Source: a virus. From it: a DNA stretch of 20,559 bases. The position numbers and the translations under genes are program-made. Numbering within the stretch: the first letter of the stretch is position 1; the number at the start of each line of letters is the position of its first letter. Where the stretch lies: the IMG/VR virus record IMGVR_UViG_3300009151_008314, positions 1 to 20,559 of that record; one strand, written 5' to 3'. This document shows, piece after piece, positions 1-19,396 of this stretch. Under the pieces are notes generated by a model. That model was not told the origin of the DNA. It did not search any database and worked only from the letters and a program-made list of their open reading frames with translations.

Positions 1-703
1 CATGTTTATCTGTCTGTTTGGATATACGATCTTGCTTTATTGATTCATAATTTTCAAACTGAGATTGATTAAATTCCAGATCTTTTGTGATATTTTCGAG
101 CTTACCATAAGCTACATCATAATCCTTCTTGAGGATGCTATAATCATCTCTAACTTTTAAGACCATTGCCGTAAACACTTCAAGTCCGAGTACACTCTCA
201 ATAAATTTTCTTCTATCCGTTTTAGGCAAAGCCATAAAAGGCAAAGCATTATTAACAGACATAATTACAGAGTTTTGAAACACTGTAGCTGGTGTCCTAA
301 TCAAGTCTTGAATAAGATTATTAGTCTTAGCCAAAGTAGAGCGGGTTACTTCTTCTCCGTTTTTAAATAATTGACACTTTGTTGGATTAAGCTTTCTTAC
401 TACTTTATAAGTATCGACAGTGTTATTTGAGTTAAGATCAAACGTCAAAGAGACTTCGCAACGCTTTTTGGTTACAGTGTTTGATATAAAATCTTTTCCT
501 ACTTCGCGTAAAGTATTTCCGTACAATGAGTAATACAAAGCATCACATATCGTAGATTTTCCTACTCCGTTCTTTGAGTCTTCTTTATCCAAGTTGGTTC
601 CAATGATTGCATTGACGCCTGGACGGATATTTACAACAACGGGATTGTCTCCAAATGATAGAAAATTTTTTGCCTCGATAGTTTTAAATGTAATAAATCG
701 CAT
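1..703 (-). CDS. 46: Recombination endonuclease large subunit, gp46/SbcC-like, N-terminal part (runs off the window)
   Basis: I translated this by hand from the ATG at 703; the frame stays open to the window edge, so about 234 N-terminal residues are present. The protein begins MRFITFKTIEAKNFLSFG, the usual start of SbcC/Rad50/gp46 ATPases. A Walker A with a short insertion follows (GTN...NGVGKST, about residues 35-51), then a Q-loop-like VFQNSVIM near residue 140 and the beginning of a charged region likely to be coiled coil. In T4, gp46 pairs with gp47 to resect DNA ends for recombination-dependent replication and host DNA breakdown. Here gp47 lies about 6.6 kb upstream on the same strand, separated by a glycosyltransferase cassette. 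A TTGATT/TATAGT promoter lies just upstream, so gp46 can be expressed without readthrough of the cassette. The family call is firm. Confidence 0.9.
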   Translation of the reverse strand, partial: MRFITFKTIEAKNFLSFGDNPVVVNIRPGVNAIIGTNLDKEDSKNGVGKSTICDALYYSLYGNTLREVGKDFISNTVTKKRCEVSLTFDLNSNNTVDTYKVVRKLNPTKCQLFKNGEEVTRSTLAKTNNLIQDLIRTPATVFQNSVIMSVNNALPFMALPKTDRRKFIESVLGLEVFTAMVLKVRDDYSILKKDYDVAYGKLENITKDLEFNQSQFENYESIKQDRISKQTDKH

Positions 704-711
704 TTAGTATA

Positions 712-739
712 ACTATACTTTACAAAAAAACAAAATCAA
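712..739 (-). promoter_or_regulatory. Sigma70-like promoter for gp46
   Basis: Reading the minus strand, TTGATT (734-739) and TATAGT (712-717) are separated by 16 nt. The -10 ends 8 nt before the gp46 ATG, so the transcript would have a leader of only about two bases. The -35 overlaps the stop of the upstream methyltransferase gene. The -35 is a moderate match and the -10 a good one. Confidence 0.45.
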
Positions 740-1311
740 GTAGTCTTTTGAGCTATAATGTTAAACTCTTCTTCATGCATAGAGTATCCTAAATTTTGTA
801 ATTTTTGCTTGCAACTATTTAATTTTGGACCTCCTCTTGACATTGTTCCGTCGGAATGAATAAATTCAAACATTAAAAAATTAATACTAAATTCTTCAAA
901 GTTTATACTATTCACAATATCAACATCAAGACCTTCCACATCAATATATAAACGGTCGATAATTTTTAACTTCAAATCCCTAAACAATTGATTTATATTT
1001 TTTGCTGGAACCTTTTCTGTTCTAAAATTATGGCAGCTGTGATTTTGTAAATGATAGTCAACAAGGGAGGATTGAGCGGCAATATCGTTTTCCGTGGGGA
1101 TAAATAATTCTACATACGGTTCATTTATAGTTGTAATAGCATAATGAAAAAAATGTGTATTAGGAATATCTTTGTATTGATTTTTGCAAACAGAAATACA
1201 TTTTTTGTTTGCATCTAAAAGATATATATTATCAATAATGGTTTTATTTTCGGTAACAAACTTAAAAACGTGATCGTTTCCGTCGTTACATCCTATTTGT
1301 AGTATATTCAT
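736..1311 (-). CDS. FkbM-family methyltransferase
   Basis: A 191-residue SAM-dependent methyltransferase of the FkbM type, a family that typically O-methylates sugars in polysaccharides and glycoconjugates. Visible signatures are the SAM-binding motif I LQIGCNDGND (residues 4-13), an acidic LLDAN near residue 32 for ribose binding, and RLYIDVEGLDVDIVNSI (about 120-136), which matches the FkbM 'IDVEGxExxVL' segment. It is the last gene of the glycosylation cassette. Its ATG overlaps the TGA of the preceding gene as ATGA (1308-1311), which suggests translational coupling. There is no Shine-Dalgarno sequence. It is only distantly similar to the second FkbM gene at 2098-2697, so this is not a recent tandem copy. 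The acceptor sugar is unknown. Confidence 0.8.
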   Translation of the reverse strand: MNILQIGCNDGNDHVFKFVTENKTIIDNIYLLDANKKCISVCKNQYKDIPNTHFFHYAITTINEPYVELFIPTENDIAAQSSLVDYHLQNHSCHNFRTEKVPAKNINQLFRDLKLKIIDRLYIDVEGLDVDIVNSINFEEFSINFLMFEFIHSDGTMSRGGPKLNSCKQKLQNLGYSMHEEEFNIIAQKTT

Positions 1312-2111
1312 AAATTATATTCTTGTTCTCTTGTGTCTCCCAATTCTTTTTCATTTATATTAGTATGTGTTAAATTTAAATTTAAAAATTGTGCAGTACT
1401 TCCAACATTCGAAGTGGATCTAATAAGGTGACCACAGTTAGATAGTATATAGCAATCAGTTAATACATCTAGTCCTTTTTTATATCCAGAAATTTGAGGA
1501 TAATTGTTGTGTATGGAAACAGAACCTTGAGATCGAAATGCGTCAGTAAAGCTAACTGGTTTATTGTGATATTTAGAGATGTGGTTTGTTATTGTTCGTA
1601 AATCTTCCGATTCATCGGAAGCAATAAACACGTTATCAAAAGTTGGTAATAATTGATCTATATATTTTATGTAAACAGACACATCCAATGGAAATGCTGA
1701 AGAAGGCTCTCCAAATACATGGCCAATAAGTTTGTCCGTTTTTCTAATATGAATTCCTAATGTTTTATCATTTACTTTTAGATTAGCTAAAGCTTTTATT
1801 ATTATACTTTTAGTATCCTCATTCAAAATTATAAAATTAGTCAAAATATAATTCATTGTCTGTCTAAAATTATGTCCATCGGATAATTTTAGATCAGTAT
1901 AGTCTCCCACTATGTCATTGCTTTCTTTCCGGCTGTAAGCATTGCAATAAAAGTATTCCCAGGCGTTTGGACCGTATATTGCGTCGTTGTATGGAGTGGA
2001 ATTCCAGTCGATATACCACTCTTGGTTTTTATTTAAAGCATGAGATATATGCCGAGCCGCATCTAAAACGTTTCCAAAAAATCCTTTACTCGTTCCTTTA
2101 ATAATTTTCAC
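1308..2111 (-). CDS. GT23-like (alpha-1,6-fucosyltransferase/NodZ-type) glycosyltransferase
   Basis: A 267-residue protein with the features of the GT23/O-fucosyltransferase fold. LGIHIRKTDK (about residues 118-127) resembles the GDP-sugar-binding HxRRxDK of FUT8 and NodZ. VFIASDESEDL (about 161-171) follows, and then a C-terminal block with D..ILSNCGHLIRSTSNVGSTAQFLN, which corresponds to the 'D..LS.ad.lvcT.SS' region of that fold. It probably transfers a deoxyhexose from a GDP-sugar to a glycan. The start is GTG (2109-2111), 14 nt inside the preceding FkbM gene; I see no better ATG. The stop overlaps the next ATG. The fold call is reasonably good, but donor and acceptor are inferred from family knowledge only. 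Confidence 0.65.
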   Translation of the reverse strand: MKIIKGTSKGFFGNVLDAARHISHALNKNQEWYIDWNSTPYNDAIYGPNAWEYFYCNAYSRKESNDIVGDYTDLKLSDGHNFRQTMNYILTNFIILNEDTKSIIIKALANLKVNDKTLGIHIRKTDKLIGHVFGEPSSAFPLDVSVYIKYIDQLLPTFDNVFIASDESEDLRTITNHISKYHNKPVSFTDAFRSQGSVSIHNNYPQISGYKKGLDVLTDCYILSNCGHLIRSTSNVGSTAQFLNLNLTHTNINEKELGDTREQEYNL

Positions 2112-2697
2112 AATATATTTGATATGGCCTAACTCCCCTAGGTCCTTTTGTGAAGTCTCTGGTTATTGTCTCTCTCGTAGAAAGTTCTTTGAACTCTAAC
2201 CCCAAATTATTTAACAAATCAAATATTTCTTCCCAATCTTTGTCTAAATGGCATTCAATCGCAATAAAAGAACATCTTTTAAAAGTTTCTGGTCCACCTT
2301 TTATGGCTTTTATTTCGGCACCCTCAATATCAATCTTTAAACAATCTATAGGCAAATCTTTAAAATATGTATCCAATCTTACAGACGTTGTAGTTCCAAC
2401 GAGGTCACATTTTGTTTCTGTTGCATCGTAACCAATAATATTTCCCATATAAGTGTTTTCGTGTTGATACATATATTCAGTACCATCTATATCAGAAATA
2501 GCTTTATATTCATATACACAACCTTCTACCGGAGTTCCAATATGATTGATATCGAATGAGTATATTTTTCCGTTTGGTTTAGATAAATTTGAGAAAAAAT
2601 TTGTATACATTCCTTCACAAGCTCCGACATCACAATAATTCCAATTTGGTCTGTGTATTTCGGTTATAAGAGTTGTTAATAAATTATCCCAATCCAT
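2098..2697 (-). CDS. FkbM-family methyltransferase
   Basis: A 199-residue methyltransferase. NYCDVGACEGMYTNFFSNL (residues 20-38) is a clear SAM-binding motif I, KIYSFDIN (about 44-51) ends in the acidic ribose contact, and DCLKIDIEGAEIKAIKG (about 118-134) is the most typical FkbM signature in the window. The family usually methylates hydroxyl groups on sugars. It sits between an exostosin and the GT23-like gene in the cassette and overlaps the latter by 14 nt. The start is the ATG at 2697, only 6 nt after the stop of the upstream gene. It ends NY with no extra domain and has the family's usual short length. Confidence 0.85.
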   Translation of the reverse strand: MDWDNLLTTLITEIHRPNWNYCDVGACEGMYTNFFSNLSKPNGKIYSFDINHIGTPVEGCVYEYKAISDIDGTEYMYQHENTYMGNIIGYDATETKCDLVGTTTSVRLDTYFKDLPIDCLKIDIEGAEIKAIKGGPETFKRCSFIAIECHLDKDWEEIFDLLNNLGLEFKELSTRETITRDFTKGPRGVRPYQIYCENY

Positions 2698-2703
2698 AAT
2701 ATG

Positions 2704-3552
2704 TTATTTAGTAGTATTTTTTAGGTGTTCAAGGATAAGTCTAGGAAGGTTATCCATTGCAAAGTACTTTTCGTAAGCAATTTTACCGTTGTGTCTCATT
2801 ATACTCAATTGCTCGTCAGAAATAGATAATAACTGTTCTTTCAAAGAAGAAATATCATTAATATGAATCCCTATTGAGAATTCATTCCAATTTAATACAT
2901 TTGAATATGGAAGCCACTTCGTGTCGTCGTGTACATATATGGGAACACTTCCGAGTTGTAATGCCTCATAAAATCTAAATGATTGTGCTCCATAACCTCT
3001 TGGACAAAGAGTAAATTTTGATCTAGAAGTAACATTTAAGAATGTGTCTTGTTTAACGTTATTTAAACTCCAAGACCACTCTCCATTTTGTATATAAAAT
3101 AACGGATCATCTTTAAATGAAAGAGTCATTATTTTTCTCACGTTGTGTGTATCCGATCCTATGAATGAACAGAAAATATCTCTACGGCTAAAATTTAATT
3201 TGTGAATGTTAATAGGAGAGCACACTAAAGGTATAGGAATGCCTCCGGAGTTTCCTCCTGCAGAAAACACTATAGTTCCTTCAGGTAATATTTCTTTAAC
3301 TCCATCGTCGTGCTGAGCAACACAAAAATACTTTAAATGTTTAGGTAAAGATTTTATATAGGAATCGATATCCAATTGATACAAATAAGCAGTTGTCCAA
3401 AAAATAGGAAGTAAAGTATATCCAGTACTATCAAATATTTGTTTGTTTTTAGTGTAGTAATCAAAAAAATATTCCTCCATATACATTCCTTGATGATACG
3501 GAGGATAAGGAGCTCCTTGCCAAGGAACTCTTACATTTTTAAAATCTAACAT
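2704..3552 (-). CDS. Exostosin-like glycosyltransferase (GT47 type)
   Basis: A 282-residue protein. Near residues 180-250 it carries FTLCPRGYGAQSFRFYEALQLGSVPIYVHDD, then LNWNEFSIGIHINDI and a helix SLKEQLLSIS. These match the C-terminal nucleotide-sugar-binding half of exostosin proteins ('CPRG.g..s.Rf.eal..G.iPVi..d', 'W..f.i.i.e.di'). The family adds uronic acid, galactose or other sugars; the specificity cannot be read here. I use the ATG at 3552, which overlaps the TGA of the upstream gene as TGATG; a TTG one codon earlier is also in frame. A second exostosin gene (4199-5107) lies two genes upstream and shares the same signature, so the cassette holds a diverged pair. Confidence 0.8.
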   Translation of the reverse strand: MLDFKNVRVPWQGAPYPPYHQGMYMEEYFFDYYTKNKQIFDSTGYTLLPIFWTTAYLYQLDIDSYIKSLPKHLKYFCVAQHDDGVKEILPEGTIVFSAGGNSGGIPIPLVCSPINIHKLNFSRRDIFCSFIGSDTHNVRKIMTLSFKDDPLFYIQNGEWSWSLNNVKQDTFLNVTSRSKFTLCPRGYGAQSFRFYEALQLGSVPIYVHDDTKWLPYSNVLNWNEFSIGIHINDISSLKEQLLSISDEQLSIMRHNGKIAYEKYFAMDNLPRLILEHLKNTTK

Positions 3553-4202
3553 CAAATAAAATTTTGTTGTTCGTAATTTTTACGAGTGGCTTTTAATAAA
3601 TTTATTTTATTGTTTACTCCCATTACCCAATTAGCATGATGCATTACAATATTCCTTGGGACTAAAAAATACTCTTGATTATGCCAATGATCATAATACA
3701 TTCCATATGTAAAGAATTCTTTTGGTAGAAAGGCATGTTTAATTTCAGGAAATTCTCTGAGAGCGGCTTGTACTGAAGTTTGATCGTCTCTATGTAAGTG
3801 GTTAGTCTCTAATGCTAGTTGAAGCAATTTTTTAGTATTTTCATTTTTCTTACAATAGAAAAACCCTGTACACTGAGCTCCATAATAATCATTTTGAAAA
3901 ACAATGTCATGATTACACAAAGCTTTTTTTCCTAATTCACATATTGGTTTAAAGAACTGTACATCAACATCACTAAACACAAAATAATCACTTGTATCCG
4001 TAATGTCGTCAAATATTCCTAGGATCTTTTCAAGTTTTTGAGCTGTTGCAGCATTCCATCCTTTGCTTGCAAATTCCCCTGTTGGACACTGCTGATCTAG
4101 CTCGAAATAAACAGGATCAACAGTGGATTCTACATCCTTGATAGTATTAAACCAAGGAAGGAATATTTTATGTGTTTCTGAATATGCTGTGTAAATCCTC
4201 AT
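3552..4202 (-). CDS. Nucleotide-diphospho-sugar transferase-like protein (GT-A fold)
   Basis: A 216-residue protein whose middle contains DYFVFSDVDVQFFKPI (about residues 70-85). The SDVDVQFF segment is a DxD motif of the type that holds the metal and sugar nucleotide in GT-A enzymes. Later come CTGFFYCKKNENTKKLL, HRDDQTSVQAAL and the C-terminal RNIVMHHANWV. This order (DxD, 'gfm..k......l', 'DQ..' and a late His) resembles the Nucleotid_trans/GT77 group. No signal peptide or membrane segment is visible, so it should act in the cytoplasm. It overlaps the upstream exostosin gene by 4 nt (ATGA) and the downstream one by 1 nt. The GG/AG before its ATG (GGAG) is one of the few possible ribosome binding sites in the cassette, but it is also coding sequence of the upstream gene. 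Confidence 0.65.
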   Translation of the reverse strand: MRIYTAYSETHKIFLPWFNTIKDVESTVDPVYFELDQQCPTGEFASKGWNAATAQKLEKILGIFDDITDTSDYFVFSDVDVQFFKPICELGKKALCNHDIVFQNDYYGAQCTGFFYCKKNENTKKLLQLALETNHLHRDDQTSVQAALREFPEIKHAFLPKEFFTYGMYYDHWHNQEYFLVPRNIVMHHANWVMGVNNKINLLKATRKNYEQQNFI

Positions 4203-5107
4203 AAATCTCCAATAAATGTATTAAAGTATCCCTCAGATGAAAAATAAGTCATCCACAAATTTCTGTTATGTTTAGGAGATATTTTACATTGAGATATTAA
4301 TTCCGGAATATTATGTATGTCTTGTTTGTTTATACAAATAATATGTTCGTCCCAATTAATTTGTTTATGAAACGGTAGAATACATTCTGTGTTGATTAAT
4401 ATTGGTATTCTACCAAATGAAAGTGCTTCATAAAACCTATAAGAAAAATTACCATTGCCTCTCATACAAAGAGTAAAAGAACCAGACAATAAATTTTCGT
4501 AGAAAGAGATTCTAGCTATTTGCTTTGATTGAAGCTCTGGAGCCCAAAATCCTGAACGATATATAAAATTGGTATTATCGTATACCGATTCTACTTTTTG
4601 TATTATAGGAAGTCTTCCGTTTCCTACGTGACCACAAAATGTAATAATTTTGTTGGATGGCAATTCCGTAAGATTTTTATATGATGGAAAATGGTCGGGA
4701 ACAATAACTGGGAATACTCTTTCGTTTATGTGTTTAGTAAATTGATTTAACGAAGTTCTATATAGATATAAGTTATTTGGTAGAATAAACGATTCACCAC
4801 TATCGTCGTTATAAAACCCTATTACTTTTTTGTTGTTTAAATTGGCTATATTGCAATATTCTTGAATTCTGGAATCGTTTTTATCATATTTAAATGGAAT
4901 GATGGCTATGTCACATTCTTCTATGGTTTGTACATATATACTTCTAATATCAGTCAGTCTTAGTTTAGTAAATAGACCTTCATTCCAAGTATTAGCGTGA
5001 TTTAATACAATTTTATATTGTTCTTCGGATAATAGAGGAACTGCTGGAAATATTTCTGTAAAACATTTTAAATCCTGGTCGTTGATTGGAAACAAAAATA
5101 ATTTCAT
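4199..5107 (-). CDS. Exostosin-like glycosyltransferase (GT47 type), second copy
   Basis: A 302-residue protein. Its C-terminal half carries FTLCMRGNGNFSYRFYEALSFGRIPILINTE (about residues 212-242) followed by INWDEHIICINKQDI, the same arrangement as in the exostosin at 2704-3552. The N-terminal half (MKLFLFPINDQDLKCFTEIFPAVPLL) is not similar between the two by eye. Presumably one enzyme adds each of two sugars to the same glycan, but that is an inference. The upstream gene's stop and this ATG share TAAATG, and the downstream gene overlaps by 4 nt. No signal peptide is seen. The family call is good, the substrate unknown. Confidence 0.78.
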   Translation of the reverse strand: MKLFLFPINDQDLKCFTEIFPAVPLLSEEQYKIVLNHANTWNEGLFTKLRLTDIRSIYVQTIEECDIAIIPFKYDKNDSRIQEYCNIANLNNKKVIGFYNDDSGESFILPNNLYLYRTSLNQFTKHINERVFPVIVPDHFPSYKNLTELPSNKIITFCGHVGNGRLPIIQKVESVYDNTNFIYRSGFWAPELQSKQIARISFYENLLSGSFTLCMRGNGNFSYRFYEALSFGRIPILINTECILPFHKQINWDEHIICINKQDIHNIPELISQCKISPKHNRNLWMTYFSSEGYFNTFIGDL

Positions 5108-5913
5108 TTAAAAAACATTTGTTGTAACTCTAATTCGTTAGAGTGGGGTGTTAAGAAATTTGGCCCTGGACGTTTTACTAATACATTAAAAAAGTATCTA
5201 TGCCATTTTGCAAAGTCGTCAGCATAATTTTTGCTAAACATATCTTCGTTATAATAATACTCTTTAATTTTTGCTGAAGATTTATCTTCATGTATTATAT
5301 GAAATAACGTAGGAAATTTATTTTGCATCATTGTATCTGCATTGCTTAATAATATTGTTGCATAATGAGTGTCCCAGTAAACTACTGCGTAAACATATTC
5401 AGGAAATAGCAACCTGTTAGCTTTCCACCAATCAGTCTTAATAGTAAATGTATCAAATCCTGATACCTGATAGTGACTATTTTTTACTGGAGCCGTTTCG
5501 TCATTAAGTTTTAGTTCGAAATTGAGGTCTTTAATATCTCCCTCAATTGCTAATCTGGAGCCAATATAGGCTTCGTGAGTTTCATTAAAAATTTCATTAA
5601 AAAACTTATAAGACACAATAATATCAGAATTAATAAAACAAAAATAATCATAACCAAGAGCTGCTAACTCATCAAACATGTCTCTAACGATCGGAAGATG
5701 TTTGTCTCCTCCAAAAGCTTCTTTGCTTGTACGCTTTAAACATCTAAGAGTAGTAAATCCCTCCTTTTCTGTTAGGTCCTTTCCATCTTCAAATTGAAGA
5801 TTAAACAAATCTATTTGATTTCCAAACTTTGCCTTACATTTGAGTAAACTATCTGATCCAAGTGTTTGTCTAAAGCACTCTCCAAATAAATTTGTTCCTA
5901 CTGCTATTTTCAT
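5104..5913 (-). CDS. Putative GT-A-type glycosyltransferase
   Basis: About 269 residues from the ATG at 5913, which overlaps the TGA of the upstream methyltransferase as ATGA; an in-frame TTG two codons earlier is less likely. The N-terminus KIAVGTNLFGECF followed by FDELAALGYDYFCFINSDIIVSYKFFNEI (about residues 84-112) looks like a GT-A domain, with NSDI in the DxD position. YWDTHYATILL and a late HIIHEDKSSAKIKEYYYN fit the acceptor side. It does not match a named family that I recognise. The assignment rests on this motif order and on being in the middle of a glycosyltransferase operon. Confidence 0.5.
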   Translation of the reverse strand: MKIAVGTNLFGECFRQTLGSDSLLKCKAKFGNQIDLFNLQFEDGKDLTEKEGFTTLRCLKRTSKEAFGGDKHLPIVRDMFDELAALGYDYFCFINSDIIVSYKFFNEIFNETHEAYIGSRLAIEGDIKDLNFELKLNDETAPVKNSHYQVSGFDTFTIKTDWWKANRLLFPEYVYAVVYWDTHYATILLSNADTMMQNKFPTLFHIIHEDKSSAKIKEYYYNEDMFSKNYADDFAKWHRYFFNVLVKRPGPNFLTPHSNELELQQMFFK

Positions 5914-6497
5914 AACCAAATAACTCCTATTCCTTTTTCGTTATTAGCTTCGTGTAAAAACTCTTTGTATTTATAATTTTGTTTAAGTTCTTGCCACAGG
6001 TTATAAACCCCTCCTTCTTCGTTTTTACCGATATCATGGAATGCAACCATTCCCCCTTTTCTTACTAGAGGACTATATAGCTCAAAATCCATTTTAACTC
6101 CTTGGTACGTATGATCACCGTCAATAAACAAAAAGTCAATTCGTTCACCATTAAATATATCTTTTGTCTTTTGGAGAGTTTCGGGACGTTGAGAAGCATT
6201 AGGAATCAAATAAAGTTTGCACTTCTTTGCTTTGGCCCACTTTGGCCATTCTTCTTTGTAATTCTTCTCTTGTTTCTCCACGCGCCAATCATTAGGTCCT
6301 ACAAAGTTTCTTACAGGAAGATCTATGGCTACTACTGTAGATTGATCCTGTCCGTAATGAATAAAATGTTGAAGAGTCCATCCGTACAAAGAACCAATCT
6401 CTATTACTTTGGAAGGATTAAGTGTTTTATAATCTTTAAGAAGTTCTTCAAACTCTTGAAGGTTCTGACTGTTGAGTTCGTTATCTGCTATGATCAT
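5910..6497 (-). CDS. Class I SAM-dependent methyltransferase (CmcI/Methyltransf_24-like)
   Basis: A 195-residue methyltransferase. KVIEIGSLYGWTLQHFI (residues 30-46) is motif I, VVAIDLP (about 56-62) the acidic strand, and DFLFIDGDHTYQGVKMDFELYSPLVRKGGMVAFHDIG (about 120-156) is the characteristic central block of Methyltransf_24/cephalosporin-hydroxylase-like enzymes, including the IDGDHTY and AFHDIG pieces that often bind a metal. Such enzymes commonly methylate sugar hydroxyls in polysaccharide or rhamnosyl clusters. The gene overlaps the upstream GT2 gene by 17 nt and the downstream GT by 4 nt. It ends GIGVIWL, the usual terminal strand of the fold. Confidence 0.8.
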   Translation of the reverse strand: MIIADNELNSQNLQEFEELLKDYKTLNPSKVIEIGSLYGWTLQHFIHYGQDQSTVVAIDLPVRNFVGPNDWRVEKQEKNYKEEWPKWAKAKKCKLYLIPNASQRPETLQKTKDIFNGERIDFLFIDGDHTYQGVKMDFELYSPLVRKGGMVAFHDIGKNEEGGVYNLWQELKQNYKYKEFLHEANNEKGIGVIWL

Positions 6498-7326
6498 TTT
6501 TAAGTTGTTTAAGGTTTTCTATTACTTGTTCTTTACTAACAAAAGGAGGTTGGTTTGGATAGTGTCCATGCTTTTTTAAATAAATCTCTCTTCCAGCTGT
6601 AACTTTTTTCATCCATTCTGATTTATCTTTAGCAATTGCTGAGTTTTCTATAGCATTAGGAGCTTCAGTTAAAAGTTCATGACTATTGGCTAAATCCGCA
6701 AACCACCAAAAAGGTGTATGATACCCTGCTTTATATATATTATATGTGTGATCTACGTGTTCCCAACATTGATCATATTCTTCATCAATATAACCCACTT
6801 TATCTATAACTTCTCTAGTAAAAAAAGAAAACATTGCCACAGTATGTTCATACAAAGCTATTTTACAAGTTTTATAATCCACAATTAGTTTTGGGTTAGG
6901 TTCAGTACTCTGATCTAATAAATGTCTATTATGTAAATCGAAGTGTTGTATTACTTGCTTTCTATTGAAAGGAGATCCTGGACCATAGTTAAAATGCTGA
7001 ATACCTGACGCTTTACTTGCTTCTATATACTGTTTAAACACTGATTGATCCAGAATCAACATATCGTCTTCGATAACAAAGATATAATCACACCCTTCAT
7101 CATATAGATTTTTTAAAGCTATGTTTTTAGCTTTTCCTACTCCAATTCTACCAGATGTGTGATATATAAAATCTGCTTTAGAATAAGAGTATAAAGAATG
7201 CGTCTGTCCATCATCTACAATAATAAGCCTATCAATACCTGCTTCCGCTTTGTTAATAGAATCCAACAATCCGTTGAGGTAATCAACTCTTTCACAAGTA
7301 ATGATAGCTACACCAATTTTATTCAT
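6481..7326 (-). CDS. Family 2-like glycosyltransferase
   Basis: A 281-residue GT-A enzyme. It opens KIGVAIITCERVDYLNGLLDSI (residues 3-24), the nucleotide-binding start of GT2 proteins, followed by RLIIVDDGQTH (33-43) with the first Asp pair, GVGKAKNIALKNL (62-74) and DYIFVIEDDMLILD (80-93), where EDDM is the DxD metal site. A later YDQCWEHVDHTYNIYKAG (about 184-201) carries the acidic/His residues expected near the acceptor site. It is the first gene of the cassette, overlapping the end of gp47 by 8 nt, so the cassette is probably cotranscribed with the replication genes. Donor and acceptor are unknown. Confidence 0.8.
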   Translation of the reverse strand: MNKIGVAIITCERVDYLNGLLDSINKAEAGIDRLIIVDDGQTHSLYSYSKADFIYHTSGRIGVGKAKNIALKNLYDEGCDYIFVIEDDMLILDQSVFKQYIEASKASGIQHFNYGPGSPFNRKQVIQHFDLHNRHLLDQSTEPNPKLIVDYKTCKIALYEHTVAMFSFFTREVIDKVGYIDEEYDQCWEHVDHTYNIYKAGYHTPFWWFADLANSHELLTEAPNAIENSAIAKDKSEWMKKVTAGREIYLKKHGHYPNQPPFVSKEQVIENLKQLKNDHSR

Positions 7327-8386
7327 GGGAAGTAAGGCATACTTTATACAATTCTAAGCACTTATCAAGTACTTCTTTTTTTGTAGATCTCGTATCCACT
7401 AGTTCTATAAACTCTTGAAATGCAGTTTCTATATCAATTGATAATTTCTTAACTTCTTTAGTATCAATTTGAGCACTATCGAGTATATTAAACTCAGTTC
7501 TAAATTGAAGTGGATTGTACTGAGTTAGCTTTGTAATCAACATATCCAAAGTTAGAGTGTCAACTTTTGTATCAACGTATAAGCTAACTATATTGTTGGT
7601 TACAATAGACGGAAGGTCATTGTACTTTTTAGATAACAACTCAGATATTTTAATCCTATGATGCTTGGGAGTAATAGAATTTTTGATAAACAAAGCTGGC
7701 ATATTATTTTCATTAAAATCTATAATAGATACTCCTTTTTGCTGTCCTCTATCTCCGAAATCCATTTCGTATGGTGAACCAAGATATAAAACATATCCAT
7801 TGTCGTAATTCCTCTGTTCTCTAAAATGAAAATGTCCAGTAATAACTGACCTAGCTTTATCGAGTAAATCTGTAGATGAATCTCCATGATCGCAAATTTT
7901 AGTTGCGTTCATTTTAAAGTTAATAATTTCAAAATGTCCAATAAGCATATCTACGGGATCTAATTCTGATACATCGGTCTTCCATGGACAAAATGTTATT
8001 TTTTTATCCGATACTTCAATAGTTGTAGGTACTGTATACACATGAACCTTGTCGTTCTTTAAAATCTCTACGGAATTGACTTCAACCGTTGAAGATAAGA
8101 AAGCATCGTGATTACCGGGAATTAAATGTACATCAAATTCAGATAGAGTATCAAAAAATTGTTTTGCTACATGAAGTGTGTTAACTCCTATTTCGTGTCT
8201 ATCGTGAAATACGTCTCCAGCAAAGAAGATTGTATCTAATCCTTGCTCGTACATTACCTGTTTAATCCAGGCAGCTAAATCCAAAGAAATTTTATGCCAC
8301 GTCTGGGAGTTTTGATGAACTCCTAGATGTAAGTCCGAAAAGAAAAGAACTTTATTTTGTTTGGGATTAATCTTCAAAATGGCCAT
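7319..8386 (-). CDS. 47: Recombination endonuclease small subunit, gp47/SbcD-like
   Basis: About 355 residues from the ATG at 8386. The frame is open 78 nt further upstream, but that part lies inside gp55 and the protein begins naturally at MAILKINPKQNKVLFFSDLHLG. The metallophosphoesterase motifs appear in order: SDLHLG (about 17-22), GDVFHDR (about 56-62), PGNHD (about 90-94), IGHFEI and TGHFHFRE. These bind the two Mn/Mg ions of the nuclease. With gp46 it forms the Mre11/Rad50-type complex that processes DNA ends for recombination-dependent replication. It overlaps gp55 by 20 nt upstream and the GT2 gene by 8 nt downstream. In T4, gene 47 is close to 46; here nine sugar-modifying genes separate them. 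Confidence 0.92.
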   Translation of the reverse strand: MAILKINPKQNKVLFFSDLHLGVHQNSQTWHKISLDLAAWIKQVMYEQGLDTIFFAGDVFHDRHEIGVNTLHVAKQFFDTLSEFDVHLIPGNHDAFLSSTVEVNSVEILKNDKVHVYTVPTTIEVSDKKITFCPWKTDVSELDPVDMLIGHFEIINFKMNATKICDHGDSSTDLLDKARSVITGHFHFREQRNYDNGYVLYLGSPYEMDFGDRGQQKGVSIIDFNENNMPALFIKNSITPKHHRIKISELLSKKYNDLPSIVTNNIVSLYVDTKVDTLTLDMLITKLTQYNPLQFRTEFNILDSAQIDTKEVKKLSIDIETAFQEFIELVDTRSTKKEVLDKCLELYKVCLTSHE

Positions 8387-8870
8387 TTGCTGTATAGTCT
8401 TCAGAAGACTCAAATCTAGTATTTTTTCTCGAAGGAATTTCTCCACTACAGATATGAGACTCATACATCTCGTCTTGATATCTCTTCAAAGTTTCAAAAT
8501 CTTTCTTGGATTTCTTAATACAATTTTGAAAAGCGTGGTATGCTACTTTAGTAAAGTAAGAAAACGGATTATAACCCTCAGAACACTTGAAGCGCTTACG
8601 ACGTAAAGCTGTCATCATCTTAACGATTGCATCTCCTTGCATTTCTGTCTTAAAACTATAACTATAAAAATTACGCGCTAGCCCTAACCTGACAGCAATC
8701 ATTTGTATCATGCCTGCGAGCTCTTCTGATAAGTGATCAGTTTCGTAATATTCCACATTAAGAGCTTCCATCGCAATTGGATCTATGTATACATCTTTTA
8801 ACTCCTCTTTAGTTCGTCTTACTCTTTTTACGGGAGCTGCTGCTAATTTAGGTGCTTTTGTAGTTGTCAT
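8367..8870 (-). CDS. 55: Late-transcription sigma factor, gp55-like
   Basis: A protein of about 167 residues resembling T4 gp55, the minimal sigma factor that recognises the extended -10 of late promoters and works with the sliding clamp. The best-conserved part is MMTALRRKRFKCSEGYNPFSYFTKVAYHAF...KKSKK (about residues 85-122), the region 2-like helix block with the typical YNPFSYFTK. The basic N-terminus (PVKRVRRTKEELK) is common in phage versions. I choose the ATG at 8870 because a strong sigma70-like promoter lies at 8884-8911; an in-frame TTG at 8897 would be inside that promoter. The gene overlaps gp47 by 20 nt. This factor presumably reads the TTAAATA elements seen elsewhere in the window. 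Confidence 0.88.
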   Translation of the reverse strand: MTTTKAPKLAAAPVKRVRRTKEELKDVYIDPIAMEALNVEYYETDHLSEELAGMIQMIAVRLGLARNFYSYSFKTEMQGDAIVKMMTALRRKRFKCSEGYNPFSYFTKVAYHAFQNCIKKSKKDFETLKRYQDEMYESHICSGEIPSRKNTRFESSEDYTANGHFED

Positions 8871-12429: not shown

Positions 12430-12876
12430 ATGGATTTAGGCCACTGGCAACTTTTGGAAGGTCTTGATTATAAAGAGGATGCATTTGGTTTTGTGTATCG
12501 AATTGATCGAGTAAATCCTGGTCCGAAAGATAAAAAACACTATTGGGGATGTAAGCAAATGGTTCAAAAGAAAAAGCTAGCTCCATTAAAAGGAAAGAAG
12601 AGATTCCGCAGATCAATAAAAGAAAGCGATTGGAAGACGTATACCGGCTCTTCAAACGAGCTTAACGCTGACATTGCTATATATGGTAAGAATCAATTTA
12701 AGTTTGTAATTTTGCAATTTTGTAGTTGCAAATGGCAATTAAAATACGAAGAGCTTAAAACTCAAATGCATAATAATGTTTTGTTGAGAGACGATACCTA
12801 CAACGGAATTATAAACGTGAGATTAAACAAAGTTCCCAAAGACCTTAAAACAATATATGAATTCAACATCTGTTAA
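12430..12876 (+). CDS. SegE-like GIY-YIG-type putative endonuclease
   Basis: A 148-residue protein resembling the SegE-like domain found in many T4-like phages. GFVYRI (20-25) and HYWGCKQ (37-43) stand where GIY and YIG would be, both degenerate. SDWKTYTGSSNELNADIAIYGKNQFKFVIL (66-95) is the most typical part, and the later EELKTQMHNNVLLRDDTYNGIINVRL (107-132) contains the Glu and Asn expected on the active face. SegE-type enzymes are free-standing homing endonucleases. It starts 4 nt after the Lys-rich gene with a plausible GAGG ribosome site 6 nt upstream, one of the few in this window. It overlaps the next GIY-YIG gene by 20 nt. Activity is uncertain because the motifs are altered. Confidence 0.72.
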   Translation: MDLGHWQLLEGLDYKEDAFGFVYRIDRVNPGPKDKKHYWGCKQMVQKKKLAPLKGKKRFRRSIKESDWKTYTGSSNELNADIAIYGKNQFKFVILQFCSCKWQLKYEELKTQMHNNVLLRDDTYNGIINVRLNKVPKDLKTIYEFNIC

Positions 12877-13855
12877 TTTTGTATCAGGAATATACAAAAT
12901 AACTTCTCCTTCTAAAAGAGAGTATATCGGCCAAGCAAAACATATACGAAAACGGTGGGAACAATACAAGTACTACGAAAGGGATTACGAATGTGTTAGA
13001 ATTAAAAACAAAACAAGCTTAATATATAAATCTTTTATTAAATATGGTTTGGAATCACACAAGTTTGAGGTAATAGAGTATTGCGACGTTGACAAATTAA
13101 ACGATAGAGAGATATATTATATAGAAAAATATAAAACCTTTTTTAAAAAATACCCAAGTAAAAGGGGTCTAAATTTACACGAAGGTGGCAATGTTCCCCC
13201 TTGCAGTTTAGGCAGAATTGTATCTGTTGAAACTAAAACCAAAATAAGCATAAAAAATAAATTAAATCATGCAGCGGGTAAATACAAATATCCCAATAAC
13301 AAACCAATAATTAAAAAAAATCTAAACGGAGAAGTGATATTAAAGTATAATACTTTACAGGATTTGGTAAAACACGAAGATTTTAGTCTAAGCAAGTTTT
13401 ATCGTAATTTTATAGAATTTAACAAATGTTTTATAGGAAATTTTGTTTTTTCGTTTGAAAATCCGACACACTTTAAGTACAAAATACAACAACCAAAAGT
13501 TCAGCGAATCAAAAAGGAAAAACAAAAAAAATCAGCAGAGGAATTGTTTAAAATATCACAAAAAAGAAAGGAATATGCAAAATCTTTAGGTCTTAGCAAT
13601 AAAGGAAGGATAATCATAAATAGAAAAAAACCCAAAAAAACGGAAAAAATGCTTTTTCATCTCAGTCGAGTCCACCAATTAAACAAAAAACCAATAGACC
13701 AACTCGATATGAATGGAAATCTTATTGCAACTTTTCCTTCAATTAAAGATGCAGCAGCAGCTGTTAATGGGGATAGACAACCAATATATTCCGCTTGTAC
13801 CAACAAAATAAAACGTTGTTACGGATTTATGTGGAGGTATAATTGTATCAAATGA
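12857..13855 (+). CDS. GIY-YIG homing endonuclease with NUMOD DNA-binding repeats
   Basis: A 332-residue endonuclease. GIY is at 11-13 and YIG at 23-25, with the catalytic Arg candidate in HIRKRWEQY (R33) and the Glu in DREIYYIEKYKT (about residue 80). It is followed by LGRIVSVETKTKISIKNK (about 118-135), a NUMOD3-like DNA-binding helix, an intermediate NUMOD1-like unit (KKNLNGEVILKYNTLQDL), a very Lys-rich linker, and a C-terminal NUMOD1/IENR1 unit (DQLDMNGNLIATFPSIKDAAAAVNG...CYGFMWRY, about 281-329). This architecture is that of I-TevI-like and free-standing phage homing enzymes, which spread by cutting alleles that lack them. It is intact, more AT-rich than its neighbours, and overlaps genes on both sides (20 and 4 nt). 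Confidence 0.87.
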   Translation: MNSTSVNFVSGIYKITSPSKREYIGQAKHIRKRWEQYKYYERDYECVRIKNKTSLIYKSFIKYGLESHKFEVIEYCDVDKLNDREIYYIEKYKTFFKKYPSKRGLNLHEGGNVPPCSLGRIVSVETKTKISIKNKLNHAAGKYKYPNNKPIIKKNLNGEVILKYNTLQDLVKHEDFSLSKFYRNFIEFNKCFIGNFVFSFENPTHFKYKIQQPKVQRIKKEKQKKSAEELFKISQKRKEYAKSLGLSNKGRIIINRKKPKKTEKMLFHLSRVHQLNKKPIDQLDMNGNLIATFPSIKDAAAAVNGDRQPIYSACTNKIKRCYGFMWRYNCIK

Positions 13856-14310
13856 ACACAAAAACCTTTCCTAAGTCTCGTGTCTGCGTAATTGATATAT
13901 ATCCTTCCTTCGAAGAAGGGCTAAAAAAGGCTGTCGAGTTTTCTCTGAAGCACGATATTTCTCTTAATTCTCCGGATGGTAAAAAGGTTATTTTAGGATT
14001 TTGTATCGAGTATATTGAGAGGACATTTAACAATATCAAAAGCCCATATCCAAAAGTACTTTGTATGGGATCAAAAGCAAAAAACCAAAAGATTGAAAAT
14101 TTTATTGCGGACCACTTTGATTCTATACTAAAGAAAATGCCTTATCCATATTGCGGAAAAGTTTCCATCACTTCTCCGGATCTAGAATCAGCTGCAGAAA
14201 ATTGTTTAAAAAATATAAAGACTAAAAGAAGCTTTATTAAAGTAGCTAAAAAGCTGAAGTTAATTCCTCAGACTTCAGCCGACAATAAAGATCCATCCTC
14301 TTCTCCGTAA
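13852..14310 (+). CDS. Protein of unknown function
   Basis: A 152-residue protein from the ATG at 13852, which overlaps the TGA of the GIY-YIG gene as ATGA. A GGAGG at 13833-13837 is 14 nt away from that ATG but only 5 nt from an in-frame TTG at 13843, so a start three codons earlier is possible. No domain was recognised. The sequence is mixed alpha/beta: RVCVIDIYPSFEEGLKKAVEFSLKH, KKVILGFCIEYIERTF, then PKVLCMGSKAKNQKIENFIADHF and a Lys/Ser-rich end. No signal peptide or membrane segment. Its last 43 nt overlap the end of the convergent kinase gene, so there is no room for a terminator between them. Confidence 0.6.
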   Translation: MNTKTFPKSRVCVIDIYPSFEEGLKKAVEFSLKHDISLNSPDGKKVILGFCIEYIERTFNNIKSPYPKVLCMGSKAKNQKIENFIADHFDSILKKMPYPYCGKVSITSPDLESAAENCLKNIKTKRSFIKVAKKLKLIPQTSADNKDPSSSP

Positions 14311-14909
14311 CAACCACCGTTATCTTTGACATATAGCTTGATCTGGGGCAAGCGCATGTCGGGAGGTCCGTCTAGTTTAATAACTGCTGGACAATCTTCC
14401 TTAGGAAAGAAAGCTCCAGTATTCTTTTCATACGAAGCAAAAAGAGCTGCAAAGATATTATCCATTTCTTCTTGAAAGAGCTCTTCGGTCTCCCTATTCT
14501 CCTTAGCAACAAGAGGAATTTCCTTTCTGGCAGGAACGTAGAATATAATATCAAACGACTTTAAAGTCATTGCAGCAATGGCTTGACAATCGATGATAAA
14601 CTCCGAAGTAAATACGTCGGAATTCTTTCCGTGATGCCAAAGGGAATATGCAATATTATCAACAACACATCGGTCAAATACTAAGAACTTATCTTCACTG
14701 GCATTTGCTTCCTGTACTTCATCTACAAGAGCGTTAAGGATTATCTTTTGTGTATCCTTGGTTGCTTCTTTATTGATAACCAGACCTTTTTCTTTGATTA
14801 TATCCCTATAAGTCTTTTCGGGCTTCTTATACATGGGCCACCGCTTAATAAATTCCTCAATAAGCGTACTCTTCCCTACTCCTTGTGCACCGATAAAAGC
14901 AATCTTCAT
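14268..14909 (-). CDS. P-loop ATPase/kinase (NadR/AAA_28-like)
   Basis: A 213-residue P-loop protein. Walker A is GAQGVGKST (7-15). FLVFDRCVVDNIAYSLWHHG (about 75-94) has the DRxxxDxxxY pattern of nucleoside/deoxynucleotide and NadR-type kinases, and SFDIIFYVPARKEIPLV (about 117-133) is a Walker-B-like strand that leads into a lid with ENRETEELFQEEMD. Probable role: phosphorylation of a nucleotide or cofactor; the substrate cannot be read. The gene has its own short upstream region carrying GTAAATA 5 nt before the ATG. It lies downstream of queE, and its last 43 nt overlap the convergent unknown gene. Confidence 0.72.
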   Translation of the reverse strand: MKIAFIGAQGVGKSTLIEEFIKRWPMYKKPEKTYRDIIKEKGLVINKEATKDTQKIILNALVDEVQEANASEDKFLVFDRCVVDNIAYSLWHHGKNSDVFTSEFIIDCQAIAAMTLKSFDIIFYVPARKEIPLVAKENRETEELFQEEMDNIFAALFASYEKNTGAFFPKEDCPAVIKLDGPPDMRLPQIKLYVKDNGGCYGEEDGSLLSAEV

Positions 14910-14914
14910 AGGAG

Positions 14915-14921
14915 TATTTAC
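14915..14921 (-). promoter_or_regulatory. Possible late-type promoter element GTAAATA
   Basis: On the minus strand GTAAATA is followed by 5 nt (CTCCT) and the kinase ATG. The distance is the same as for the four TTAAATA elements, but the first base differs. No -35 with good spacing is seen. Confidence 0.35.
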
Positions 14922-14942
14922 CGCGGTTTAAATATATGTCTA

Positions 14943-15707
14943 CTAAACTTTCAAGGCCATATTCCAAATCAAGAGGTGTAACCTAGGACTAAAATTTACA
15001 TGCATTGCTTTTGCATATTCAGCAACAGCTGGAGCATTCTGTATATGCTCATCTCTTGATCCACAACAAGGCATAAACCAAACTCGCTGAAGAGGAATAT
15101 TAATGCCCTCATAATCCTCAATATACTTTCTCCAGATCTCTTCGATGTCCCTGTCTGAAGTAATAACAAACTTAAATCCAGAATTGTGGTCTACGTGCCA
15201 TTTAAGAACCTCTGGCTTATACGTCCTTTCCTCAGGATCTCCGTTAGTGGTAAGCTTTGGAGATGTTGTGAACGTAGCACTAAAGTCTGTAACCCATCTT
15301 TCGTCGGGTTGAATAGTTGCATTAGTCTCAAAATCAATACGAGGCGTAAAACCATAACGATCTACAAAAGCTCTAACAAACCTTAGAAGAGGTTCCTGTC
15401 TCAGCGTTGGTTCACCCCCCGTTATTTTCCAAATGGCTCTATTACGAAGATGCTCTACAAAATTATTCTTTTCGTAATAATCAAAAATTTCTTGAAACGT
15501 CCATTTGTTTCGTTTTGACCAAGAAATAAAAGAATCGCATCCATTAGGAGAAGCAGGAGAAGCAAATGCTCTACAAAGGAGGTTGCAACCAAACAAGCGC
15601 ATAAAAACACTTGGCTGTCCTACATACTCCCCCTCCCCCTCCAAAGTGTAAAAACCGGCCGTGTCATCGCTAATAAGCAAATAATCTTCGTCTGTTGTAT
15701 CAATCAT
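14943..15707 (-). CDS. queE: 7-carboxy-7-deazaguanine synthase QueE (radical SAM)
   Basis: A 254-residue radical SAM enzyme that converts 6-carboxytetrahydropterin to 7-carboxy-7-deazaguanine. It has FYTLEGEGEYVGQPSVFMRLFGCN (19-42), the QueE 'QGEG...G.p..F.R..GCN' start; KITGGEPTLR (94-103), the SAM-binding GGEP; and FETNAT (about 126-131). The cluster cysteines are C41, C45 and C57 (C-x3-C-x11-C) instead of the usual C-x3-C-x2-C; an insert RAFASPASPNG precedes the conserved CDS. In phages QueE normally serves 7-deazaguanine DNA modification, sometimes host tRNA. QueD is encoded two genes upstream. The ATG is 1 nt from a 20-bp palindrome and directly follows a TTGACA promoter. Confidence 0.88.
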   Translation of the reverse strand: MIDTTDEDYLLISDDTAGFYTLEGEGEYVGQPSVFMRLFGCNLLCRAFASPASPNGCDSFISWSKRNKWTFQEIFDYYEKNNFVEHLRNRAIWKITGGEPTLRQEPLLRFVRAFVDRYGFTPRIDFETNATIQPDERWVTDFSATFTTSPKLTTNGDPEERTYKPEVLKWHVDHNSGFKFVITSDRDIEEIWRKYIEDYEGINIPLQRVWFMPCCGSRDEHIQNAPAVAEYAKAMHVNFSPRLHLLIWNMALKV

Positions 15708-15708
15708 T

Positions 15709-15728
15709 CAAATAGTTTAGACTATTTG
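15709..15728 (-). promoter_or_regulatory. Perfect palindrome at the queE start (operator or RNA hairpin)
   Basis: CAAATAGT and ACTATTTG form a perfect 8-bp inverted repeat around TTAG, ending 1 nt before the queE ATG. It covers the candidate -10 and part of the spacer, as a repressor operator would. If it is transcribed it could fold at the start codon. No T-run follows, so it is not a terminator. Confidence 0.6.
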
Positions 15729-15741
15729 ATGTATATGTCAA
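15714..15741 (-). promoter_or_regulatory. Sigma70-like promoter for queE
   Basis: On the minus strand a perfect TTGACA (15736-15741) follows the stop of the peptidase gene and is 16 nt from TAAACT (15714-15719), a fair -10. The start site would fall at about the ATG, giving a leaderless mRNA. Confidence 0.45.
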
Positions 15742-16476
15742 CTATCTACTCTCGTAGTCTTTAAGCTGATTATAAAGTTTTGCAACATCCTTAAACATCT
15801 TCTGGTACTTCCGACGAACTTGTTCATCATCTTTATGTTGTACTAAAAAGTTAATAAACCTTTCGTGACCTTTAAAGAAACTAGGAATATTGACTACGTT
15901 TGTTGCTCCAGTCTTTAAAAAAGAATCTAGAAAAGACATAAATCTGTCCTTTGCAATTTTCCAAACCTTGGATGTTCTTTCGTCCGGAGCTTCAGATAAC
16001 TTATCGGTTATCGTTACATAATAACGTTCAATAGCATCCAGAAAGGTTGAAACATACACAGGATATTCTGTAGCATGCATATAATGCTCTTTTTCCTTTT
16101 CTTGAGAATAGGGCTCATACTCTTCTCCTGCCTTTTTATACTGTTGTTTAGCATGATATAATTCATGTGAAATCATATTAACAACTGTCTCGACATTATA
16201 CAAGCCTGTATTGTTGTAAAATAACGTTATTGTATTGTTATTTTCATCGTATAGTCCCGTAACATTACTCTTCTTTGGAGATACTATAACTTTAGCTGAG
16301 CTTTCTTTGTTTGTCTCAAGGTCAGTGAATGCAATAACACCGAGTACAATATCTTTAGGAGGAGCTTTCTCTCCGAACAAAGCTACATATTTTTGAGCAA
16401 GACCGTTTATCTGGTTCTTTTCGGAGTCAGATAAATTATAACGGCCTTCTGTGAAGAATTGCTTAAATGATACCAT
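15742..16476 (-). CDS. HExxH zinc metallopeptidase-like protein, possibly packaged in the head
   Basis: A 244-residue protein. HELYH (104-108), in the helix VVNMISHELYHAKQQY, is a standard HExxH zinc site, and HYMHATEYPVY (131-141) offers a third ligand (probably E137), as in gluzincin-type peptidases. The C-terminal half is helical and basic. The first residues, MVSFKQFFTEGR, look like the capsid-targeting peptide of T4 internal proteins (MKTYQEFIAEA), with a cut expected after FTE. A late-type TTAAATA lies 5 nt before the ATG and overlaps the queD stop. Together this suggests a late-made protease carried in the particle; a virion role is inference and no substrate is known. It stands between queE and queD. 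Confidence 0.65.
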   Translation of the reverse strand: MVSFKQFFTEGRYNLSDSEKNQINGLAQKYVALFGEKAPPKDIVLGVIAFTDLETNKESSAKVIVSPKKSNVTGLYDENNNTITLFYNNTGLYNVETVVNMISHELYHAKQQYKKAGEEYEPYSQEKEKEHYMHATEYPVYVSTFLDAIERYYVTITDKLSEAPDERTSKVWKIAKDRFMSFLDSFLKTGATNVVNIPSFFKGHERFINFLVQHKDDEQVRRKYQKMFKDVAKLYNQLKDYESR

Positions 16477-16481
16477 CCACC

Positions 16482-16488
16482 TATTTAA
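16482..16488 (-). promoter_or_regulatory. Late-type promoter element TTAAATA
   Basis: On the minus strand TTAAATA is followed by GGTGG (5 nt) and the peptidase ATG; it overlaps the TAA stop of queD. No -35 is seen 15-18 nt upstream. GGTGG is also a weak Shine-Dalgarno-like sequence, but it is too close to the start. Confidence 0.5.
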
Positions 16489-16958
16489 GGTCTTTGATAT
16501 ATTGAAGAGTTGGCTTCGTGCTCAAATACTTCGACGGACTGAATCCAACAACGATCTCCATATTCTTCCTTAAGAAACTTATCTGCTTCATTGAAGCAAA
16601 ATTCCGCAACTTTTTCAATTCCTACTCCGTCCATAATCTTAAGATTGCAAGCTCGGGCTTCATGAAGTTGCTTAAACAAATCTAAGCAGGGATCGTTTTT
16701 ATCAATCGTTAAAGTATGATCAAACTGTTCGTTAAGAGTAGCCTTAAGCTTCTTCAATGAACCATAGTCTACTGCCCAGTTACGTTCGTCTAACTCTTTA
16801 CAACCAAATGTAAACTTGGCTTTTAGCTGGTAACCATGAACTTTGTAACAAGAATTTCCTTCTCTTACTAAGCCAGCTGTAGCCAGTTCAGGATCAGCCT
16901 TCCACTGACGAAAGGCACAGGATCCCAATTCAAATACTTTAGTTGAAGAATAGCTCAT
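16485..16958 (-). CDS. queD: 6-carboxytetrahydropterin synthase QueD (divergent FRQW type)
   Basis: A 157-residue member of the PTPS/QueD family, which turns dihydroneopterin triphosphate into 6-carboxytetrahydropterin, the substrate of QueE. SCAFRQW (13-19) stands where classical enzymes have FxAAH. SCYKVHGYQL (36-45) keeps the catalytic Cys (C37) and one His (H41), but the second His of HGH is Tyr. WAVDYGSLKKLKATLNEQFDHTL (61-83) has the D-H pair (D80, H81), and VEVFEHEANSS (142-152) the C-terminal Glu. The FRQW/HGY form is, as I recall, a known subgroup in some bacteria and marine phages; how it binds zinc is unclear. It overlaps the upstream small gene by 4 nt (ATGA). Confidence 0.82.
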   Translation of the reverse strand: MSYSSTKVFELGSCAFRQWKADPELATAGLVREGNSCYKVHGYQLKAKFTFGCKELDERNWAVDYGSLKKLKATLNEQFDHTLTIDKNDPCLDLFKQLHEARACNLKIMDGVGIEKVAEFCFNEADKFLKEEYGDRCWIQSVEVFEHEANSSIYQRP

Positions 16959-18286: not shown

Positions 18287-19396
18287 ATGTTAGATTTTAA
18301 AAAGTTAGTATTAGAGGCAATTACTAGTCCAGCTGGTATTATGGATTTTTGGAACGATCCTACTGAACTTATCAATATTAAAAAAATTTTTAAAACAAAA
18401 TTCAATTTAGAGAATTGGACAATTACAGGATCGGATCGTGGTTTATTAGTAGACGCATTCGAAAGAAACAATGCTTCAAAGATTAAATCTTTAATAAAAT
18501 ATTTTCCTATAATAGATTTTTTATTTTACATTGCTGAGGAAGAAGATAAAAGTAAAAAAAGAGGTACAAGTGCTAAGATTTTATCAAATGCTCCAGTATT
18601 AGATAAAACTAAAACAGACCAATACGAAAACGCATTTATAACAGAGTTTCAAAACAAGAATCCTCGTTTAGTAGATAATTCCAATCCCGTATATGATTAT
18701 AAAGCAATAAGCGGAAAAGGAACATCTTTGTTACAAGTATTAATGAGGGATTCGGCAAAAAATATTATAGGAGAAATAGCTTTAGATAATTTTAAAGATA
18801 AAAATATCAAAGAAACACTATATGGTATTCTTAATAATCACAGAAAGTTAAAAACTACGCTTTTAAATAAAGTTGTGCCTGATGCAGGGACTTTTATCGA
18901 AAAGATTTTAAGTACTCCACAAAATTTTATTGGAGGACAAACAACCATTCCGAACAATTTTAAACAATTATATAATGAAGTTTCTCTTAAAGAAATTGTG
19001 GAACTGTGTATATCCATTCACAATTTTTATGAATCGGAATTGATAAGATTTAATATTACAAAACCAAGAATTCCTGTATCCTCATTCAATCAATTTATTA
19101 CTAATACTCCTTTAAATGATAAAAAACTGTTTAATTTTCAGTGGACGATTCAAGGTAAGTTAACTCAACCAGTTAATACACCAGCTGAAACATCACCAGG
19201 CAAACAAGATCCGGGAATTAATGGGTATATTATCGCAAACATAAAAAACGTTAATACGCCCGAATCTCAAGTATTAATAAGAAAGTTTGAAAATTTATTA
19301 AATTTTATAAAAGCTGGTGAACCGCAGGATTGGACAGGAGCTCTTCAATCTCTTGCTAGTGTGCGAGGTATTCTCGGTAAACATGTTATGGGTTAA
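18287..19396 (+). CDS. Protein of unknown function, possible virion protein
   Basis: A 369-residue protein, no family recognised. The N-terminus MLDFKKLVLEAITSP is like the capsid-targeting peptides of the neighbouring genes, with VLE as a possible cut site at residue 10. The body is rich in Lys, Asn, Ile and Phe, with helix-like segments (LIKYFPIIDFLFYIAEEED, LKEIVELCISIHNFYESELIRF) and a Pro/Thr-rich loop near residue 295 (TQPVNTPAETSPGKQDPG). No membrane segment or signal peptide is convincing. Unlike the other genes of this group it has a sigma70-like rather than a late-type promoter. It ends in TTAA, which is also the stop of the convergent primase gene. Confidence 0.6.
   Translation: MLDFKKLVLEAITSPAGIMDFWNDPTELINIKKIFKTKFNLENWTITGSDRGLLVDAFERNNASKIKSLIKYFPIIDFLFYIAEEEDKSKKRGTSAKILSNAPVLDKTKTDQYENAFITEFQNKNPRLVDNSNPVYDYKAISGKGTSLLQVLMRDSAKNIIGEIALDNFKDKNIKETLYGILNNHRKLKTTLLNKVVPDAGTFIEKILSTPQNFIGGQTTIPNNFKQLYNEVSLKEIVELCISIHNFYESELIRFNITKPRIPVSSFNQFITNTPLNDKKLFNFQWTIQGKLTQPVNTPAETSPGKQDPGINGYIIANIKNVNTPESQVLIRKFENLLNFIKAGEPQDWTGALQSLASVRGILGKHVMG

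Follow-up and report, generated by a model that had tools for sequence, protein, structure and literature searches.

A glycosyltransferase and methyltransferase cassette at the gp47-gp46 junction

The window, that is the whole stretch of 20,559 nucleotides analysed here, comprises positions 1 to 20,559 of the viral record IMGVR_UViG_3300009151_008314. Nine open reading frames on its minus strand, at 736-7326 and encoding proteins of 191-302 aa, fill the interval between gp47 and gp46 (Table 1). A preliminary description of this DNA had placed a glycan cassette between these two genes, and this is confirmed, with phrog_100 and phrog_77 matches at the borders. In T4 the two are near neighbours, as that description also stated, with just two small ORFs (46.1 and 46.2) between 46 and 47. 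Counted from the stop of gp47, eight of the nine joins are overlaps (4-17 bases) and one is a spacing of 6 bases, although the exact overlaps are only approximate because several starts are TTG or GTG. The gp47 ORF is itself overlapped by 98 bases (8367-8464) by that of gp55, the late sigma factor, and the same is seen in close relatives.

Table 1. Genes of the cassette, its borders and a neighbouring block in the window
Feature	Positions	Strand	Support
gp46, SbcC-like, 5' part only (cut by window end), downstream border	2..703	-	phrog_77 E 6e-41
g1, FkbM methyltransferase	736..1311	-	PF05050 E 2e-6
g2, FUT8/GT23-like glycosyltransferase, HIRKTDK motif	1308..2111	-	PF19745 E 7e-5, below cut-off
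g3, FkbM methyltransferase	2098..2697	-	PF05050 E 2e-11
g4, exostosin/GT47-like glycosyltransferase	2704..3555	-	PF03016 E 2e-17
g5, nucleotide-diphospho-sugar transferase, DVDV (DxD) motif	3552..4202	-	PF03407 E 5e-12
g6, exostosin/GT47-like glycosyltransferase	4199..5107	-	PF03016 E 7e-11
g7, GT-A-fold glycosyltransferase without described family	5104..5919	-	AlphaFold pLDDT 93; Foldseek
g8, Methyltransf_24-type methyltransferase	5910..6497	-	PF13578 E 4e-15
g9, GT2-like glycosyltransferase, EDD motif, first island gene	6481..7326	-	Pfam Glycos_transf_2 E 4e-7; phrog_2456 E 7e-31
gp47, SbcD-like nuclease subunit, upstream border	7319..8464	-	phrog_100 E 3e-58
AAA_28 kinase-like gene, QueE, unknown ORF (15742-16476), QueD	14268..16958	-	context only

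Profile searches support eight of the nine proteins, one of them (g2) weakly, and the ninth, g7, has a confident model of GT-A fold whose nearest Foldseek matches are RmlT, TarP and polypeptide GalNAc-transferase. This supports a count of six glycosyltransferases and three methyltransferases, the same as had been read from the sequence alone. The two exostosins, the DxD transferase, the GT2 enzyme, the two FkbM proteins and the Methyltransf_24-like protein each found their Pfam profile; the GT23-like call for g2 has a sub-threshold profile match together with its motif. This content supports the earlier suggestion that the set could build a methylated oligosaccharide of several sugars. The g7 protein has no noteworthy family match in Pfam, PHROG or NCBIfam and no relatives in the phage collection searched; its NSD motif is invariant apart from N/S variation.

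No membrane segments were recognised in the nine proteins, none of which contains a 19-residue stretch above a mean hydropathy of 1.2, and a value of 1.9 is reached by just two of 161 island ORFs. The G+C content of the island (30-34%) matches that of its near flanks, so there is no sign of recent import, and PADLOC found no defence-system match. Because the island lies among replication and recombination genes and no recognisable T4-type late promoter precedes g9, early or middle expression is no less probable than late expression. A scan for the late promoter TATAAATA gave two matches against 4.1 expected by chance and was uninformative.

Elsewhere in the window, a SegE-like ORF and a GIY-YIG/NUMOD1 homing-endonuclease-like ORF lie on the plus strand at 12430-13855; in nearly every relative the SegE-like ORF is kept close to UvsW, and it may have a link with rearrangement of the region. 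Also on the plus strand (18287-19396), and adjoining the primase gene, is a fast-evolving 369-aa protein without a PHROG match, which has only 23-39% identity among relatives but a conserved position.

Variable islands at two sites and exchange of g9

For comparison of the junction, 80 IMG/VR loci were collected by a gp47 search. Among the closer relatives (gp47 identity 60-81%) the interval is always occupied where both borders are visible, by 5-10 co-directional genes over 4.5-8.9 kb, whereas in a more distant group (gp47 about 40%) the two genes mostly abut, with about 25 bases at most between the gp47 and gp46 alignments where both can be seen. An island is thus present in all 12 distinct bounded intervals of the window's gp47 clade, the window included, and because orthologous islands occupy the same junction in relatives, chance is excluded as an explanation for the cassette.

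The islands differ greatly in content. When their 89 genes were grouped by blastp, 39 families resulted, of which 27 are confined to one island, and the window island has between one and three families in common with any other. The g9 family is the only one present in all 12. Islands of relatives contain further glycosyltransferase types (GT1, GT4, GT7C, GT10, GT25 and GT34) as well as FkbM, Methyltransf_24 and a C-methyltransferase, and some also carry sugar-nucleotide genes (GDP-mannose dehydratase, UDP-galactopyranose mutase, RmlD and DegT aminotransferase). No tail-fibre genes occur among the annotated island families, no annotated isolates carrying the island were found, and matches to g8 are to uncultured jumbo phages only. 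One singleton island gene is IS605 OrfB/TnpB-like, probably, judged by size, the 419-aa ORF that follows g9 in locus L013 (12082-13341). In Pelagibacter phage Mosig (L208:5065-5700) an annotated 2OG-Fe(II) oxygenase sits exactly between gp47 and gp46, and the junction therefore takes unrelated genes in other T4-like phages.

A search with a g9 profile found 489 relatives, and among the best 80, which were kept, many have their g9-led island away from gp47, on the downstream side of a block made up of QueD, QueE and a kinase-like gene of the AAA_28 P-loop type. Homologs of these three genes, which lie apart from the island in the window, thus precede it in the second-site phages. In nine second-site records where gp47 was found, gp46 follows it directly, and those of the more distant relatives from the gp47 search that were checked again have their island at this second site. 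The surroundings are a metabolism and replication region rather than a structural one, with a helicase downstream and, in one record, a GroES-like gene. Of the 23 larger records, 21 have a g9 gene, in most cases at a single place. Because the second site is more widespread than the gp47-gp46 site, it may be the ancestral one. Near the second site of one distant relative (L201:14805-16853) lies a gene for a 682-aa protein with 39% identity to putative adenylate/guanylate cyclases of the HTVC008M and Melnitz phages.

The history of g9 does not follow that of its neighbour gp47. The window g9 has 62-68% identity to that of second-site phages, although their gp47 has no more than 36-40% identity to the window's, and 30-67% identity to the g9 of its own gp47 clade. 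In the gp47 tree a single branch (97/91) parts the two site groups, whereas on the g9 tree the site must change five times, and a single change suffices in 0 of 200 bootstrap replicates. L092, L125, L140 and L153, which span both sites, have g9, g8 and g7 in the same order as the window. This conflict between the trees indicates that at least g9 is exchanged laterally between divergent T4-like phages.

We tentatively hypothesize, at somewhat less than an even chance, that the cassette represents one allele of a glycan locus that is hypervariable among large T4-like aquatic phages, and in which g9 starts a glycan on a shared acceptor, likely a virion protein. The parts of this proposal that are directly supported are the gene identities, the co-directional and overlapping layout, the near-universal g9, the exchangeable remainder, the two sites and the exchange of g9. 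In the proposed mechanism, g9 would place the first sugar on an acceptor common to these phages, the other glycosyltransferases would lengthen and branch the chain, and the FkbM and Methyltransf_24 enzymes would O-methylate it. The acceptor would most likely be a virion protein, to which soluble enzymes would add the glycan in the cytoplasm, with sugar nucleotides drawn from the host and, in some islands, also made by the phage. A varying glycan would then alter the recognition of virions by cells or by other factors.

The acceptor of the glycan

That the putative initiating enzyme is conserved while the extending enzymes vary suggests that the acceptor is shared and the tip of the glycan varied. 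The AlphaFold model of g9 (GT-A fold, pLDDT 89) has polypeptide GalNAc-transferases as its top ten structural matches by Z (16.6-17.3, the best 17.3 over 228 residues), although GlfT2 (16.6) and WrtF (16.5), which act on glycans, lie within 1 of these; a sequence search of the PDB gave partial glycosyltransferase matches only. In the phage collection the best matches of g9 are glycosyltransferases of cluster F mycobacteriophages, with an hhalign probability of 98.6 to gp98 of Pacc40. Two genes from gp98 lies Pacc40 gp100, with 85% identity to Che8 gp110, a protein reported to be essential for capsid glycosylation (PMC12363180); the direct similarity of g9 to Che8 gp110 is weak. Because the best phage relatives of g9 neighbour this capsid-glycosylation gene, we tentatively favour a virion protein as the acceptor over a host glycan and over DNA, with DNA the least likely.

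An unlikely but serious alternative is that the enzymes edit the surface glycan of the host by acting, in the infected cell, on the lipid-linked precursors of its O-antigen or capsule. Here g9 would start a side branch on a common precursor, host flippases would export the product, and the altered receptors would exclude competing phages or let progeny be freely released. The sugar-nucleotide enzymes of some islands resemble those of O-antigen loci, the early/middle genomic position fits action during infection, and around the cellular relatives of g9 (Ignavibacteria, Cytophagales) lie genes for GT2 enzymes and methyltransferases, and also Wzt_C and RgpF domains, in what resemble surface-polysaccharide loci. 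The authors of work on pelagimyophages likewise infer O-chain modification for the glycosyltransferases of their phages (PMC7029224). However, no flippase, polymerase or membrane transferase was recognised in the window island, and g9 is 60-75% identical across phages whose gp47 is less than 41% identical, a conservation that is harder to explain if the acceptors differ between hosts.

The preliminary description had named modified DNA, virion proteins and a host surface glycan as candidate acceptors, and it is the first of these that the evidence goes against. Under DNA hypermodification, which we regard as improbable, g9 would add a sugar to a modified base and the other enzymes would build a methylated oligosaccharide that shields the genome from restriction. 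This is in keeping with a weak match of g9 to the TAGT profile PF20691 (20.6 bits against a curated cut-off of 27.5) and another to phrog_842, with the position of T4 agt, which also adjoins gp47 but on the side away from 46, and with the closeness of QueD and QueE in the window (phrog_2389 E 1e-31, phrog_2076 E 3e-42). Precedents are the TAGT of T6, which adds a second glucose (PMC13390438), and the roughly 1 kDa oligosaccharide-like thymidine adduct in the DNA of YerA41 (PMC9023294). DNA is nonetheless the least likely acceptor because searches of the relatives did not find the base handle on which DNA glycosylation depends in characterised phages. A hydroxymethylase (PF00303) was not found in 31 relatives totalling about 2.3 Mb (largest 217 and 199 kb), of uncertain completeness, the window record being a 20.6-kb fragment, whereas the T4 control finds gp42 and td. 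The searches likewise gave no TGT/DpdA (PF01702) in 18 relatives, against 14 of 14 controls, although a divergent phage DpdA could be missed; no C5-methylase (PF00145) in 10 relatives, where 10 controls match; and no 2OG-FeII oxygenase (PF13640) in 10 relatives, where the phage Mosig control has several. ThyX, for its part, is present in three relatives, and none of the nine window proteins matches an AGT/BGT-type enzyme in Pfam or PHROGs. The TET/JBP profile PF12851 gave no match, but no control matched it either, and the isoelectric point was uninformative as a sign of DNA binding, T4 AGT itself having a value of 6.1. An unfamiliar DNA chemistry, as in YerA41, is possible.

Very improbable, in our judgement, is that the junction is an insertion hotspot holding a loose collection of auxiliary metabolic genes that act separately, for example on host metabolites. 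The islands have few families in common, the oxygenase of Mosig is an unrelated gene at the same junction, and one island holds the TnpB-like gene; but the islands consist almost wholly of glycan enzymes, are always g9-led, co-directional and overlapping, and a similar g9-led set reappears at the second site.

Relation to known phage glycan systems

Most known cases of phage glycosylation involve one to three enzymes, with DNA or the capsid as the acceptor. Phage glycan cassettes as such are already known, and what is new here is a cassette that is g9-anchored, hypervariable, found at two sites and laterally exchanged. The preliminary description had seen a single cassette; the island proves to be clade-wide and hypervariable, exchanged between phage lineages and placed at one of two alternative sites. 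By analogy with bacterial O-antigen loci, whose logic is comparable, we consider it possible, though rather doubtful, that this is a phage 'serotype locus', modular, laterally exchanged and g9-anchored, through which each lineage would have a methylated oligosaccharide of its own on a virion acceptor that they share. If so, aquatic phages (freshwater and, apparently, marine T4-like) would carry lineage-specific glycans, with a bearing on virion recognition, on the competition of co-infecting phages and on how defence systems see virions. As the anchor gene, g9 offers a single target for the question of the acceptor.

The virion glycosylation of mycobacteriophages (Che8 gp110, Corndog gp38, cluster F) is similar in that a phage-owned set of glycosyltransferases differs between phages, and the homology of g9 is to the GT2-like part of Pacc40 gp98, two genes from the Che8-gp110 ortholog. 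These phages belong to an unrelated virus lineage, however, with two or three annotated glycosyltransferase genes against the 5-10 glycan genes here; theirs lie at the right end of the genome, and no FkbM is annotated in the stretches compared. Systems acting on DNA differ in other respects. T4 also has a glycosyltransferase gene beside gp47, but T4 and T6 use one or two glycosyltransferases (AGT, BGT, TAGT) on 5-hydroxymethyl-dC and require a hydroxymethylase, for which the relatives here gave no match. Yersinia phage YerA41 has several glycosyltransferase genes proposed to build an oligosaccharide, and its acceptor was identified as DNA thymidine by nucleoside analysis (PMC9023294). With 7-deazaguanine DNA modification the window has QueD and QueE in common, but the 18 relatives searched gave no recognisable TGT-type transglycosylase.

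The O-antigen conversion of temperate phages (gtrABC type) uses a membrane flippase and membrane glycosyltransferases, whereas the window island is without membrane-like segments. Closer in setting are the host recognition cluster of pelagimyophages and the hyperplastic region of cyanomyophages (PMC7029224), which are variable LPS-type glycan islands, also in T4-like aquatic phages. The pelagimyophage cluster, however, sits among the structural genes, between vrlC and gp14 and together with tail fibres, whereas the g9 island lies at gp47-gp46 or after the QueE-kinase block, and g9 gave no matches to Pelagibacter, Methylophilales or Synechococcus isolates in the phage collection. Although the stretch examined of Synechococcus phage S-SKS1 has no gp47/gp46 borders and no g9 match was reported for it, it contains a co-directional operon in which a GDP-mannose 4,6-dehydratase, a GDP-L-fucose synthase and a fucosyltransferase accompany a homolog of g4 (38% identity).
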